Origin: Reyranella sp. CPCC 100927
GTDB lineage: Bacteria; Pseudomonadota; Alphaproteobacteria; Reyranellales; Reyranellaceae
Length of the DNA: 64,000 nt
Assembly (NCBI RefSeq): GCF_007859315.1
Contig: NZ_VOHA01000007.1
Location: 62,001 to 126,000, forward strand
Direction: 5' to 3'
Part shown: piece by piece, positions 45,439-50,214 of the stretch
Position numbering within the stretch: position 1 is the stretch's first letter
How the letters are laid out: each line of letters opens with the position of its first letter
Program-made: the position numbers and the translations under genes
Notes under the pieces: generated by a model
Database searches by the model: none
Told to the model about the DNA's origin: nothing
What the model saw: only the letters and a program-made list of their open reading frames with translations

Positions 45439-46124
45439 GGGCGGCAGTGCTGCTGGGCGGACTGCTGTTGCTGTCGCCGCCTGCTCTGGCTCATCCGCAC
45501 GTGCTGATCGACCAGGTCGTGCGCTTCGTCGAGAGCGACGGCGCGTTCACCTATGTCGAAGTCGAATGGCGCTTCGATCCGATGGCAAGCGAACTGGAGA
45601 TCGCGGCCGCCGATGAGAATCGCGACGGCCACCTGTCGCCGAAGGAGGTCAAGGCGCTGTCCGAACTGGCGCTGTCCGAGCTCAAGGAGCTCGGCTACCT
45701 GACCTGGGTCAACACCGGCGACAAGGATTTCCGGCCCAAGGCGCCCACGTTCAATGCGCGCATCGCCGATCCGGCCATCTTCATGCCGCAGGACTGGGCG
45801 CCGACACCGGATGCGCCGGGCGGTCCGACGCCGGCGCCGGGCAATGCCGCGAAGAAGCCGACGGACAAGAACGCCAAGCCCAAGCAGGGGCCGCGCAACC
45901 TGGTCTATACGTTCCGCTACGCGCTGCCCAAGCCGGTCAAGACCGTGGCCGTGAGCGCGGTCGATCCCGAGGACTTCGTACGCATCGAGCTCGACAAGAA
46001 GGCGCCATGGGAAATCGTCGGCGGCAACGCAACCTGTGCCGTCGACAAGAACAACAGCGTGAAATCCGAATACTGGCCCGGCAATCCGTTCTTTGCCGAC
46101 CGGGTGACGTGCAAGCTGCCGTGA
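45435..46124 (+). CDS. DUF1007 family periplasmic protein with EF-hand loop
   Basis: 229-residue secreted protein (signal peptide ending ALAHP). Its DUF1007 pattern is HPHVLIDQVVRFV, EWRFDPMAS, and a canonical calcium-type EF-hand loop DENRDGHLSPKE at residues 55-66. A low-complexity Pro/Ala/Lys-rich insert follows (about 118-155). Such proteins are commonly adjacent to NicO-type Ni/Co transporters, as here (26 bases before the next gene), suggesting a periplasmic metal-associated role (inference). Confidence 0.75.
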   Translation: MRAAVLLGGLLLLSPPALAHPHVLIDQVVRFVESDGAFTYVEVEWRFDPMASELEIAAADENRDGHLSPKEVKALSELALSELKELGYLTWVNTGDKDFRPKAPTFNARIADPAIFMPQDWAPTPDAPGGPTPAPGNAAKKPTDKNAKPKQGPRNLVYTFRYALPKPVKTVAVSAVDPEDFVRIELDKKAPWEIVGGNATCAVDKNNSVKSEYWPGNPFFADRVTCKLP

Positions 46125-46149
46125 TGGCGTTGGGACAGGAGTTGTTGGC

Positions 46150-47133
46150 GTGATGTCCGTGATGTCCAAACGTATGTCCGGCCGCGCCGCGTGGCTGTGG
46201 ATCGGCGCCACCGTCGTGGTGCTGACCCTGCTGGCGCTGGCGTTCGGCGACCTCAGCGCCCAGGTCGGCCGCATTGCCGCCGAGTGGCAGGCGCGGCTGA
46301 ACCGCGAAGTCACGCAGCAGCTGCGGTCGTTGGGCGGCGAGGGCGGTACCGCGGCGCTGTGGGCCCTGATCGCAACAGGCTTCCTCTATGGCATCGTCCA
46401 CACGCTGGGACCGGGCCATGGCAAGGCGGTCGTGGTGGCATACTTCCTCGACGGCACACGCAAGCGCGGCTGGATCGACGGCATCTTCGCCGGTGCCTGG
46501 ATCGCCATCACGCATACGGCCGCGGCGCTGGTGCTGGCCGGCATCCTCGCCGCCATGGGCCGCATGCGGCCGCTCAGCGCCCAGAGCCAGGTTCGTACCG
46601 TCGAGCTGATATCGTATGGGCTGATTGTCGCCATTGGCCTGTGGCGCCTGCACGCCGGCCTGACCGGGCGGCTGCACAACCATGACCACGATCATCACGA
46701 TCATGATCACGGCCATGCCGGGCATGCACACCATCACCACCACGGTGACGACTGTCAGCATCATCATCACGACGGACACGCGGCCACACCGCCGGCACGC
46801 TGGCGGCAGTTCCTGCGGCTCGATGCCGGGCTTGGCCTGCTGACCGCCGCTGGTGTGGCGCCCTGCGCCGGTGCGGTGGTGATGGTGCTGATCGCCTCGG
46901 TGTTCGGCGTCCTGTGGGCCGGCCTGCTGGGCGTGCTGGCCATTGCCGTCGGCATGGCCGGAACCCTGGCCGTGGTGGGCATCGCGTCGATGGCGGCGCA
47001 TCGGTTGCTGATCGGGGATCGCGCGTCGGACACGATCGGTCGGCTGACCACGATCGCGGCGGCGCTGATCGTGATCCTCACCGCCGGCTTCCTGCTGTTG
47101 GGTGCCGTTTACCGGATGGTTGCCGCCGGCTGA
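46150..47133 (+). CDS. NicO-type nickel/cobalt transporter (RcnA/HoxN-like)
   Basis: 327-residue membrane protein of the NicO family. The GIVHTLGPGHGKAVVVAY signature lies in the second segment, and a 33-residue His/Asp-rich cytoplasmic loop (about 177-210, with HHDHDHGHAGHAHHHHHG) could bind metals. The last part has the PCAGAVVMVLIA helix typical of the family. It probably exports Ni or Co. GTG at 46150 or ATG at 46153; AGGAG lies 8 bases before the GTG. The 3' end overlaps the convergent MarR gene by 25 bases. Confidence 0.88.
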   Translation: MMSVMSKRMSGRAAWLWIGATVVVLTLLALAFGDLSAQVGRIAAEWQARLNREVTQQLRSLGGEGGTAALWALIATGFLYGIVHTLGPGHGKAVVVAYFLDGTRKRGWIDGIFAGAWIAITHTAAALVLAGILAAMGRMRPLSAQSQVRTVELISYGLIVAIGLWRLHAGLTGRLHNHDHDHHDHDHGHAGHAHHHHHGDDCQHHHHDGHAATPPARWRQFLRLDAGLGLLTAAGVAPCAGAVVMVLIASVFGVLWAGLLGVLAIAVGMAGTLAVVGIASMAAHRLLIGDRASDTIGRLTTIAAALIVILTAGFLLLGAVYRMVAAG

Positions 47134-47579
47134 GCTTCCTCCTCTCGCAGCGCCGTCTCCAGCGGCTGGCGCAGGTCGCCTTTCAGGCCGGCCTGGCGCC
47201 AGCGCCGTAGCCATTTGTCCTCGATCGCCGTGATCTCGCGTAACGCCGTCTTCACGACCTGGCGGCCCGCCGGGGTGAGGCGGACCAGGCGGGCGCGACC
47301 GTCGGACGGATCGGCGATGCGCTCGACATAGCCGCGCCGCTCCAACTCGGCCACGACTTCGCCCATCGACTGGTGGGTGAGGTGGGCGCGTGCGGCCAGC
47401 ACCGTAAGTCGTGTACCGGCCGGATCGATGTTCTCGAAGATCGGATGGTAGGCCGGCGGCAGGTTGGCGAAGCCCGCGGCCTCCAGGCGTTCGGTGATCT
47501 CGTCGACCATCAGCTGTGACGTCCGCCGGAGCAGGGAAATCAACGTGACGATCCGTTGCGGTTGCTGGGACATGCGCAT
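47109..47579 (-). CDS. MarR family transcriptional regulator
   Basis: 156-residue winged-helix regulator. The recognition region is LTVLAARAHLTHQSMGEVVAELERRGYVERIADPSDGRARLVRLT, with the DGRARLV wing typical of MarR (given in parts). ATG at 47579 or 47573. It is divergent from the PNPOx-like gene, and the 89-base gap contains two matched 13-base palindromes that make a likely double operator. It is convergent with the NicO gene, overlapping by 25 bases. Confidence 0.9.
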   Translation of the reverse strand: MRMSQQPQRIVTLISLLRRTSQLMVDEITERLEAAGFANLPPAYHPIFENIDPAGTRLTVLAARAHLTHQSMGEVVAELERRGYVERIADPSDGRARLVRLTPAGRQVVKTALREITAIEDKWLRRWRQAGLKGDLRQPLETALREEEAQPAATIR

Positions 47580-47581
47580 TC

Positions 47582-47627
47582 TTGACTTATGCAGGTTGCC
47601 TGCCTATATTAGGCAGGTAACCTGCAT
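47582..47627 (+). promoter_or_regulatory. MarR double operator overlapping a sigma-70 promoter
   Basis: A 39-base near-perfect dyad (47589-47606 with 47610-47627; one mismatch) contains two 13-base palindromes, GCAGG-TTG-CCTGC (47591-47603) and GCAGG-TAA-CCTGC (47613-47625), centred 22 bases apart. The plus-strand promoter TTGACT (47582-47587), 17 bases, TATATT (47605-47610) is covered by both sites, so the MarR protein bound here should repress the PNPOx-like gene and itself. Confidence 0.8.
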
Positions 47628-47668
47628 AATAGCACGTTGATCCGCCAAGGGATACAGGAGGAGGCGAA

Positions 47669-48148
47669 ATGTCGGAAACGGAACAGCTGCGCCAGGCTGT
47701 GCGGGCGGCGATCGCGGACAACACGTTCTGCACGCTGGCGACGTCGTCGGCCGCGAACCGACCGCATGTCGTGGGCGTTCTCTACGTGGCGGTGGATGGC
47801 GTGCTCTATGTCAGCACATCGGACACCAGCATCAAGGCGCGCAACATCGGGCAGAATCCGCATGTGGCCGTGTGCATTCCGCTACCGCCGCAGCCCGGGC
47901 TGCCGCCGCTGTGCGTTCAGTTCCAGGGCACGGCCGAAGTCTGCGCCCTGCAGGATCCGCGCATGGTTGCCTTGCTGGGCACGGGGCAGCTGGATGCGAT
48001 CACCGGTCATGGTGCGCTCGATGTGCCGGGCAGCTGTCTGCTGCGCATCACCCCGGGCCGCCGCGTGGCGACCTATGGTGTTGGCGTGCCGTTGGACGAA
48101 CTGATGCGCGATCCCATGCACGCCGACCGCAGCGTGGTGCTGTCATGA
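47669..48148 (+). CDS. PNPOx-like flavin-binding family protein
   Basis: 159-residue split-barrel protein of the pyridoxamine-5'-phosphate-oxidase-like group. Features are NTFCTLATSSAANRPHVVGVLYVAVDGVLYVST and the NIGQNPHVAVCIPLPPQPG segment (given in parts). Relatives bind FMN, F420 or heme; function is unknown. Its stop overlaps the next start (ATGA). MarR-controlled by inference from the double operator upstream; such arrangements often respond to phenolic or quinone stress. Confidence 0.7.
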   Translation: MSETEQLRQAVRAAIADNTFCTLATSSAANRPHVVGVLYVAVDGVLYVSTSDTSIKARNIGQNPHVAVCIPLPPQPGLPPLCVQFQGTAEVCALQDPRMVALLGTGQLDAITGHGALDVPGSCLLRITPGRRVATYGVGVPLDELMRDPMHADRSVVLS

Positions 48149-48654
48149 TCAGTGGCGGCGTGCTGTTCACGTTGACGCTCGTCACGGCGCTGGGCTGCGG
48201 GCTGGTGGCGGGAATCTTCTATGCGTTCTCGACCTTCGTGATGGGTGCGCTCGCGCGGCTGGTGCCGGCGCAGGGCATCGCGGCCATGAATTCGATCAAT
48301 GTCGTGGTGATCAATCCGTGGTTCGGCGGCGTCTTCTTCGGCACGGCGGCGGCATGCGCGGTCCTCGCCGTGGCGGCGCTGCTGATGTGGCACAAGCCGG
48401 GAAGTACCTACGTGATCATCGCCGCGCTGCTTTATATCGTCGGCGCTCTGGGGATCACCATGGCGTTCAATGTGCCGCGCAACAATGCGCTCGCGGCCGT
48501 CGACCCGGCGAGCGCCGATGGCGCCCGCCTGTGGGCCGACTACGTCGTCACCTGGACCTTCTGGAACCACGTGCGCACAATCGCGCCGTTGCTGGCAACG
48601 GCGCTGCTGATCCTGGCGATCTGGGTGGGGCGCGACAGCCAGGTCGCGCCCTGA
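48145..48654 (+). CDS. DUF1772-type membrane protein (anthrone-oxygenase-like)
   Basis: 169-residue membrane protein with about four helices, resembling DUF1772. The start LVTALGCGLVAGIFYAFSTFVMGALARL and the central TMAFNVPRNNALAAVDP are typical. Some members are called anthrone-oxygenase-like; the reaction here is unknown. It is translationally coupled to the PNPOx-like gene and ends a MarR-regulated operon. A palindromic repeat follows 6 bases after the stop, before the convergent amidase gene. Confidence 0.7.
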   Translation: MISGGVLFTLTLVTALGCGLVAGIFYAFSTFVMGALARLVPAQGIAAMNSINVVVINPWFGGVFFGTAAACAVLAVAALLMWHKPGSTYVIIAALLYIVGALGITMAFNVPRNNALAAVDPASADGARLWADYVVTWTFWNHVRTIAPLLATALLILAIWVGRDSQVAP

Positions 48655-48660
48655 GTGCAG

Positions 48661-48764
48661 GACCCAGCCGTCATCCCGAGCGCAGCGAGGGATCTTTCGA
48701 TGCAGGCACACCTGTGCGTTACCGGCAGAAGATCCCTCGCTGCGCTCGGGATGACGGCTGGGTC
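48661..48764. repeat. extragenic palindrome, family 1, copy C
   Basis: Perfect 36-base arms (48661-48696 and 48729-48764) contain the same CCCGAGCGCAGCGAGGGATC core, and the loop again holds a small palindrome (GCACA-CC-TGTGC). It separates convergent genes. TGACGCGTGATTCC follows (48767-48780), as after copy D. Confidence 0.9.
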
Positions 48765-48795
48765 AGTGACGCGTGATTCCGGTTACTGGTCCGAA

Positions 48796-50214
48796 CTACA
48801 AGCCGATGGTCCCGAGATTGGGCTTGGCCTTGTGGAAGCCGGTGGCATCCTGGAACGCCTTGCCCAGCTTGAGCACGGCCGCCTCGTCATAAGGCTTGCC
48901 GAGGATCTGCACCGAGACGGGCAGTCCGCCGGACAGGCCGGCCGGCATGGCGAGGCCGCACAGGCCCAGATAGTTGCCCACGCGCGTATAGAGTGGCGGG
49001 ATCGGCGCCTGTTCGTCGATCTCCGCCAGCGGCGCGGCAGGGATCGGCACGGTCGGCAACAGGACCGCATCGTGATAGCGGAACTGCTCCGCGAACGCGC
49101 GCCGCCGCTGGGCCATCAGGCGCAGTTCGGCGGCGTAGGCGCCGGGTTCGATCGTGCGGCCATTCTGGACGCGGGCGCGCACCGCCGGCCCGATCGGCAG
49201 CTTGGCATCGTCGATGTAGTCCTTGTGCAGCGCGAACGCTTCCGAACCGCTGATCGCCGTCGTGCTCGACATGACGTTGAAGAACCATTCCGGCATGCGC
49301 ACGATCTCGACCTGGGCGCCCAGGCCCTCGAATGTCTTCGCGGCCTGCTGCCAGGCGGCCTTGACGTCGGCGTGCGTGTTGGGCGTGTCGGGCAGCGAGG
49401 CCGGGTCAGGCAGCGCGATGCGCATGCCGCGTACATCGGTGCCCGACCGTACGGCGGCCGTGAAATCCTCCAGCGGTTGTTCCAACGTTATCGGGTCGCG
49501 CGGATCGGGGCCGGCCAGCGCATTGAGCAGCAGGGCGCAATCCTCGACGCTGCGCGCCATCGGGCCGATCGAATCCAGGGTCCAACTCAGCAGCAGGGTT
49601 CCGTGGAGGCTGATGCGGCCGAAGGTGACCTTCAGTCCGACGATGCCGTTGAAGGCGCTGGGAATGCGCACCGAGCCGCCGGTGTCGCTGCCGATGCCGG
49701 CCGGCACCAGCCGCGCGGCCACCGCCACGCCGGTGCCGCTCGACGAGCCGCCCGGTGCGCGCTGCGTCTTGAGGTCCCAGGGATTCCACGGCGCGCCCAT
49801 GTGCGGATTGGTGCCCCAGCCGCCATAGGCCCATTCGACCATGTGCAGCTTGCCCATGGGAATCATGCCGGCGGCCAGCAGGCGTTCGGCGGTCGCCGAC
49901 GTCTGGGTGGCGACGCGCTTCTCCCACACCTTGGAGCCGCCGGTGCCGACGCGTCCGGCGACATCGCACAGATCCTTCAGCGCGATCGGCAGGCCGTGCA
50001 GGGGACCGACCGGCAGGCCGGTGGCGCGCACCGCGTCGGCTGCATCGGCCAACGCGCGGGCCTCGTTGCGGTAGACCTCGACGAAGCTGTGCAGCTTGCC
50101 GTCGCCCTTGTCGATGCGGTCCAGGAACACATCGATGATCTGGCGACTGGAGAATCTCTTGGCGGCCAGGCCGGCGGACAGCTCGGCCAGGGTCAACTCG
50201 GCGATATCGGACAT
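48796..50214 (-). CDS. amidase signature family hydrolase
   Basis: 472-residue serine hydrolase of the amidase signature family. The catalytic triad is Lys80 (ALKDL), the cis-serine in RAPGGSSSG (about 157-159), and Ser181 in SDTGGSVRIP. It hydrolyses amides; the specificity cannot be inferred, and GatA is excluded by the lack of GatB/C nearby. Its start lies 11 bases downstream of the TRAP dctM stop, so it may be cotranscribed with that operon and act on the imported compound (inference). Confidence 0.9.
   Translation of the reverse strand: MSDIAELTLAELSAGLAAKRFSSRQIIDVFLDRIDKGDGKLHSFVEVYRNEARALADAADAVRATGLPVGPLHGLPIALKDLCDVAGRVGTGGSKVWEKRVATQTSATAERLLAAGMIPMGKLHMVEWAYGGWGTNPHMGAPWNPWDLKTQRAPGGSSSGTGVAVAARLVPAGIGSDTGGSVRIPSAFNGIVGLKVTFGRISLHGTLLLSWTLDSIGPMARSVEDCALLLNALAGPDPRDPITLEQPLEDFTAAVRSGTDVRGMRIALPDPASLPDTPNTHADVKAAWQQAAKTFEGLGAQVEIVRMPEWFFNVMSSTTAISGSEAFALHKDYIDDAKLPIGPAVRARVQNGRTIEPGAYAAELRLMAQRRRAFAEQFRYHDAVLLPTVPIPAAPLAEIDEQAPIPPLYTRVGNYLGLCGLAMPAGLSGGLPVSVQILGKPYDEAAVLKLGKAFQDATGFHKAKPNLGTIGL

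Follow-up and report, generated by a model that had tools for sequence, protein, structure and literature searches.

A putative double operator of a MarR-family regulator at two divergent promoters in Vineibacter

A 43-bp dyad lies in the intergenic region (47574-47668) between marR and the divergent gene of a PNPOx-like protein, within the 64-kb stretch of DNA analyzed here (the window). It very probably serves the adjacent MarR repressor as a double operator common to the two divergent promoters. The most likely interpretation is that of an ordinary autoregulated MarR repressor module with a real, well-formed putative operator. The coordinates of the features are shown in Table 1.

Table 1. 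Features of the marR-PNPOx-like region, in window coordinates
Feature	Position	Strand	Remarks
marR gene, 154 aa	47109-47573	-	start picked by V. terrae alignment
PNPOx-like gene promoter, TTGACT-17-TATATT	47582-47610	+	sigma-70-like, 10/12 matches; V. terrae TTGATT-17-TATATG
Whole dyad	47587-47629	.	20-nt arms, 3-nt centre, joins both sites
Putative operator site 1, GCAGGTTGCCTGC	47591-47603	.	centre 47597; V. terrae counterpart GCAGGTTTCCTGC
Putative operator site 2, GCAGGTAACCTGC	47613-47625	.	centre 47619; V. terrae counterpart GCAGGCAGCCTGC
Putative marR extended -10, TGCTATTAT	47626-47634	-	abuts site 2; identical in V. terrae
Shine-Dalgarno AGGAGG of PNPOx-like gene	47656-47661	+	
PNPOx-like gene, 159 aa	47669-48148	+	PF01243 48.1 bits, cut-off 28.1
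DUF1772/anthrone-oxygenase-like membrane protein gene, 169 aa	48145-48654	+	PF08592 70.9 bits, cut-off 27.3

Both sites are 13-mers of the form GCAGGNNNCCTGC, which occurs in the window at these two places only, and their centers are 22 bp apart. As an inverted repeat, the dyad has arms of 20 nt each at 47587-47606 and 47610-47629, which are 95% complementary and have 3 nt between them. A scan for such structures (20-nt arms, at most one mismatch, loop of up to 7 nt) showed that this near-perfect dyad is unique in the window, and the same scan found none in 40 dinucleotide shuffles of it. Two 13-base palindromes with centers 22 bases apart inside a larger dyad had been reported in the preliminary description, and the coordinates, the uniqueness, and the shuffles confirm them. 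The double site was also looked for elsewhere: among 385 genomes of the class, a sample that does not include Vineibacter terrae, the twin pattern was present in one, the window genome, and a backwards control pattern in none.

The forward promoter was the sole sigma-70-like site found in 47400-47800, where the shuffle mean was 0.2. Site 1 is inside the 17-nt spacer (47588-47604) between its -35 and -10 elements; site 2 starts two bases past the -10 hexamer and lies over the predicted forward transcription start. The overlap of dyad and promoter is borne out by the promoter scan and the coordinates. The claim that the palindromes cover the -35 to -10 region holds for the whole dyad and for site 1, but not for site 2, which is downstream of that -10. 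On the other strand, TGCTATTAT may be the promoter element of marR; it stands without a good -35, and the promoter scan did not pick it up.

The neighboring regulator had been taken for a MarR protein, and its Pfam matches are above cut-off (PF12802, 40.3 bits vs. 27; PF01047, 31 vs. 24.6). The modeled structure is a winged helix (mean pLDDT 75) whose best Foldseek matches are MarR-family structures (lowest E, 2.4e-7). Structures with benzoic and salicylic acid bound are found among many others in these matches, and the model itself carries no ligand information. As expected of the MarR family, a palindromic site is located at its own predicted promoter. The named MarR equivalogs (Rv0880, Saro_0803, HpaR, BilQ, and others) scored at best 36 bits against an NCBIfam cut-off of 220. 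A further ATG lies upstream of marR at 47579 and would give two extra residues.

The 154-aa protein has no Cys and three His. Sensing of a quinone through a Cys thiol is excluded because MarR lacks Cys, and thiol-based sensing of either kind (quinone, or a redox switch of the EstR/OhrR type) was ruled out on the same ground. A gene for a NicO-family metal transporter with a His-rich stretch (46150-47133) overlaps the end of marR by 25 bp. With regard to the idea of nickel sensing, nicO is convergent with marR and is not downstream of the dyad.

V. terrae (G001) and the window genome belong to the same genus in the grouping used, Vineibacter, of the Alphaproteobacteria. V. terrae has the same layout of nicO, marR (with 79-82% identity), and the PNPOx-like gene (with 74%). 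In the alignment, a block consisting of TTGAnT, both palindromes, TATAnn, and ATAATAGCA is retained, and much of the flanking sequence has diverged. Both -10 elements are thus conserved alongside the twin sites, which in V. terrae are 21 bp apart, with one base fewer between the palindromes. In another genome of the genus (G003), nicO is followed 12 bp on by the PNPOx-like gene (68% identity), with no marR between them; no MarR match at E <= 1e-15 and no twin site were found in that genome. The operator and marR thus occur as a pair in the window genome and in V. terrae, and both are missing from G003. The exact module was found only in the former two genomes, so that the case for its conservation comes from one close relative. 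In a further genome of the genus (G002, 87% complete), none of the three genes was matched at the limits used.

A search of the whole 9.08-Mb genome (81 contigs) with a 19-bp motif returned only the two window sites at up to two mismatches. At up to three mismatches there were 13 places per strand, window sites included, against 16 for the control. A single GCAGGTNNCCTGC occurred at nine places outside the window, and all eight of those examined were within called open frames of at least 100 aa. A wider regulon was considered and found unsupported, as no place in the genome beyond the window matches the motif better than chance. From these counts, MarR is probably a local regulator whose regulon consists of this single intergenic region.

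We analyzed 26 marR upstream regions of 130 bp (those of the window and V. terrae included) for two similar palindromes, each against 500 shuffles. A region passed when at most 10 of 500 shuffles reached its observed score, a limit at which about half a region of the 26 is expected by chance. Twin palindromes passed in 11 of the 26 regions, that is, in 10 of the 25 besides the window. The score was reached by none of the 500 shuffles in nine of them, by six in V. terrae, and by seven in L061. The spacings were 21, 21, 22, 22, 23, 25, 27, 29, 35, 37, and 37 bp, which corresponds to 2.0 to 3.5 turns; five of the 11 were at 21-23 bp. All 11 came from the class of the window or from plasmids of Alphaproteobacteria. 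Of the 15 regions that failed, eight belonged to the class or to plasmids of Alphaproteobacteria; the other seven (L011, L012, L014, L015, L016, L071, L073) were all the regions of other origin. The failing regions closest to the limit were those of Streptomyces (L071, reached by 19 of the 500 shuffles) and Nocardia (L012, by 30), and Parafrankia (L014) had one strong palindrome, TAGGCAAGTACCTTGCCTA, as a single copy.

The count of 11 in 26 is an estimate and partly post hoc, because the limits of some regions were adjusted after a first look. The first run comprised 21 regions of 110 bp with 200 shuffles, and it lost the second sites near the start codons of L062, L069, and L070; the window, V. 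terrae, G019, G038, Roseibium, and L059 were already at three or fewer of 200 shuffles. For the second run, limits were shifted for these three loci and for L012, L014, and L067, spacings of up to 41 bp were allowed, and similarity was given more weight. L015, L016, L068, L074, and L078 were added; for L074, the start used lies downstream of the annotated start. Left out of the 26 were near-copies (L013 of L012, L072 of L071), a 44-residue match (L017), loci that coincide in position with the window and L021 (L057, L058), and two of the same genus as L066 (L064, L065). A MarR match was present in 91 plasmid records, and the plasmid homologues were taken from eight of these.

Half-sites like those of the window were found at Rhizobium L074, where the sites begin TAGGCAGG and TAGACAGG, and at Roseibium L075. 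L062, L069, and L070 have twin palindromes of the GTCAAGNNNCTTGAC type, 35-37 bp apart, close to the marR start. At L071 and L072, the divergent or adjacent genes code for an FAD-binding oxidoreductase and a type III polyketide synthase; at L073 they code for an NAD(P)H-binding protein, and at L076-L078 for FAD-dependent oxidoreductases. Such neighbors agree with control of metabolic enzymes in general in response to small molecules, and no single ligand is indicated. As one joint evolutionary reading, which we offer tentatively and lean somewhat against, the nicO-PNPOx pair of Vineibacter may have gained or lost marR together with the twin-operator block as one cassette, and the two-site layout may persist in a clade of alphaproteobacterial MarR repressors in which half-sites and spacing (21-37 bp) drift, with two independently placed dimers, and not a phased pair, as the selected unit.

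For the double operator, we infer binding, repression, and release by a ligand. One MarR dimer on site 1 would occupy the -35/-10 spacer of the PNPOx-like promoter, and a second dimer on site 2 would cover the forward start region and the start region beside the marR -10. With both sites filled, RNA polymerase would be shut out of both promoters, and MarR would repress both its own gene and the PNPOx-like(-DUF1772) transcript until a small-molecule ligand releases it from the DNA.

Whether the two dimers would cooperate is, in our judgment, about evenly balanced, and a two-turn geometry is no rule. In Vineibacter, where the sites are about two turns apart, the dimers could touch on one face of the DNA. 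The varying distance among relatives argues against such contact as a general feature. Cooperative binding on one face had been predicted from the regularity of the sites; the 22 bp found here agrees with it, and the prediction is weakened by the 21 bp of V. terrae and by the range of the passing regions. Among related regulators, two sites seem to be in use with no set phase between them.

The rival to the cooperative version, and to that version only, is that the dimers bind independently, each mainly serving one promoter, as proposed for EstR; we consider this a shade short of evenly balanced. It agrees with the spread from 2.0 to 3.5 turns across the 11 passing regions, and EstR is said to bind its two operators separately (PMC5201249). 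Against it, the two Vineibacter spacings are close to two turns, as are those of the five regions at 21-23 bp, and both sites are within reach of the forward promoter.

The other alternatives concern the double operator as such. Very improbably, the sites serve another regulator encoded elsewhere: the adjacent MarR is tied to them by sequence, but they occur nowhere else in the genome, they are absent from G003 as is marR, and related half-sites stand at some homologous marR genes. Activation of the PNPOx-like promoter by MarR is, if anything, slightly more improbable. Some MarR-like proteins can activate, such as WggR (PMC10458429); however, MarR bound at these positions, within the spacer and across the start, would obstruct polymerase, and no activator is needed because the -35 and -10 elements are near consensus (10 of 12). 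Least credible of all is a role of the large dyad as a nucleic-acid structure (hairpin, attenuator, or terminator). Its 20-nt arms and 3-nt loop could fold, but it would not be transcribed as a whole from the forward promoter because site 1 is upstream of the predicted start, there is no terminator-like site in 47400-47800 and no Rfam family at the gathering threshold in 46000-50000, and a hairpin has no need of internal symmetry in each half.

The PNPOx-like gene is presumably the main target of the double operator. At E <= 1e-20, its relatives amounted to two matches in 289 genomes of the class, both of the same genus, and to one in 299 genomes of the phylum, the window's own; at E <= 1e-8, none was found outside the genus in 61 related genomes, and none in plasmids. 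The fold model of the protein was poor (mean pLDDT 46, from an alignment of two sequences) and was left out of use. The score for the Rv1155-type F420-dependent oxidoreductases (TIGR03618) was 45.2, below the cut-off of 79.05. F420 is used by PNPOx-like proteins of some families. The window's own genome has a strong F420 ligase match (L089, C17:33791-34444, 253 bits), so the bacterium may make coenzyme F420, and given this ligase F420 is a possible cofactor of the PNPOx-like protein.

The start of the DUF1772 gene overlaps the stop of the PNPOx-like gene, and the two are presumably co-transcribed. The preliminary description had treated them as a target pair. Of the two, the PNPOx-like gene keeps its place and is the one conserved along with the module; the DUF1772 gene is less secure, as no relative was found in the V. 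terrae genome at E <= 1e-8 and the gene is not within the 0.24 kb that follows the PNPOx-like gene in G003. The contigs stop soon after that gene (0.15 kb in V. terrae, 0.24 kb in G003), and the comparison of neighbors there extends this far. G003 has one DUF1772 relative (34%) on a different contig, and the closest relatives are those of G015 (57%) and G019 (54%), of another genus of the family.

The best NCBIfam match of the DUF1772 protein, ChrI (a chryseobasin maturation helper; NF050162), fails with 80.9 against a cut-off of 275. ChrI is described in PMC10214503 as a DUF1772 membrane protein that partners the peptide-modifying enzyme ChrH. The surroundings of four DUF1772 relatives (L027, L028, L032, L034) were listed, and they include a DJ-1/PfpI gene at L027 and an NmrA-like gene at L032. 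The DUF1772 gene at L028 is divergent from an HxlR-family regulator (1016-1357, PF01638 113 bits). Different regulator families may control DUF1772 genes. Just past the DUF1772 stop of the window there is a perfect 36-nt inverted repeat with a 32-nt loop (48661-48696 and 48729-48764); it resembles an interspersed palindromic repeat, could terminate the transcript, and is unrelated to the twin operator.

The open-licence literature held no report of MarR, DUF1772, and an operator together. Judging by titles and the beginnings of abstracts, its papers that join the MarR family and DUF1772 concern antibiotic biosynthesis. By title, the only entry on a MarR repressor divergent from a pyridoxamine 5-phosphate oxidase was on Neisseria anaerobiosis, and no title on Vineibacter concerned regulation. 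The double operator would give an uncharacterised PNPOx-like enzyme of Vineibacter a specific and testable regulator, and the 11 twin-site regions (window included), with their differing spacing, are a small set for asking if paired MarR dimers need phasing. Otherwise, this is routine local gene regulation.

The arrangement can be compared with systems already described. The estC and estR promoters of Agrobacterium tumefaciens are each overlapped by a palindrome to which EstR binds (PMC5201249). The likeness consists in an alphaproteobacterial MarR protein with a divergent target, two palindromic operators that each overlap one promoter, and autoregulation. According to the same paper, EstR differs in its GTTATCGCGATAAC-type operators, whose footprints are separate (+16 to -18 and -46 to -82 of estC), and it senses organic hydroperoxide through Cys16 and has an esterase as target, whereas the MarR described here has no Cys. 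ZitR of Lactococcus lactis (PMC6372160) is a MarR-superfamily dimer with two palindromes at one promoter, Pzit, where they cover the -35 and -10 boxes. It is a zinc repressor with TTAACYRGTTAA sites; in contrast, the motif found here differs, no metal role is indicated, and of the two sites the first lies within the spacer and the second across the start.

The marR homologues of Rhizobium leguminosarum (L074) and Roseibium (L075) share with the window twin palindromes, related half-sites, and a divergent enzyme gene. They differ in their spacing (27 and 29 bp) and in the divergent gene, an unrelated target annotated as haloalkane dehalogenase (alpha/beta hydrolase). By analogy with EstR and ZitR, the double operator proposed here would follow an established design, that of MarR proteins at double sites.
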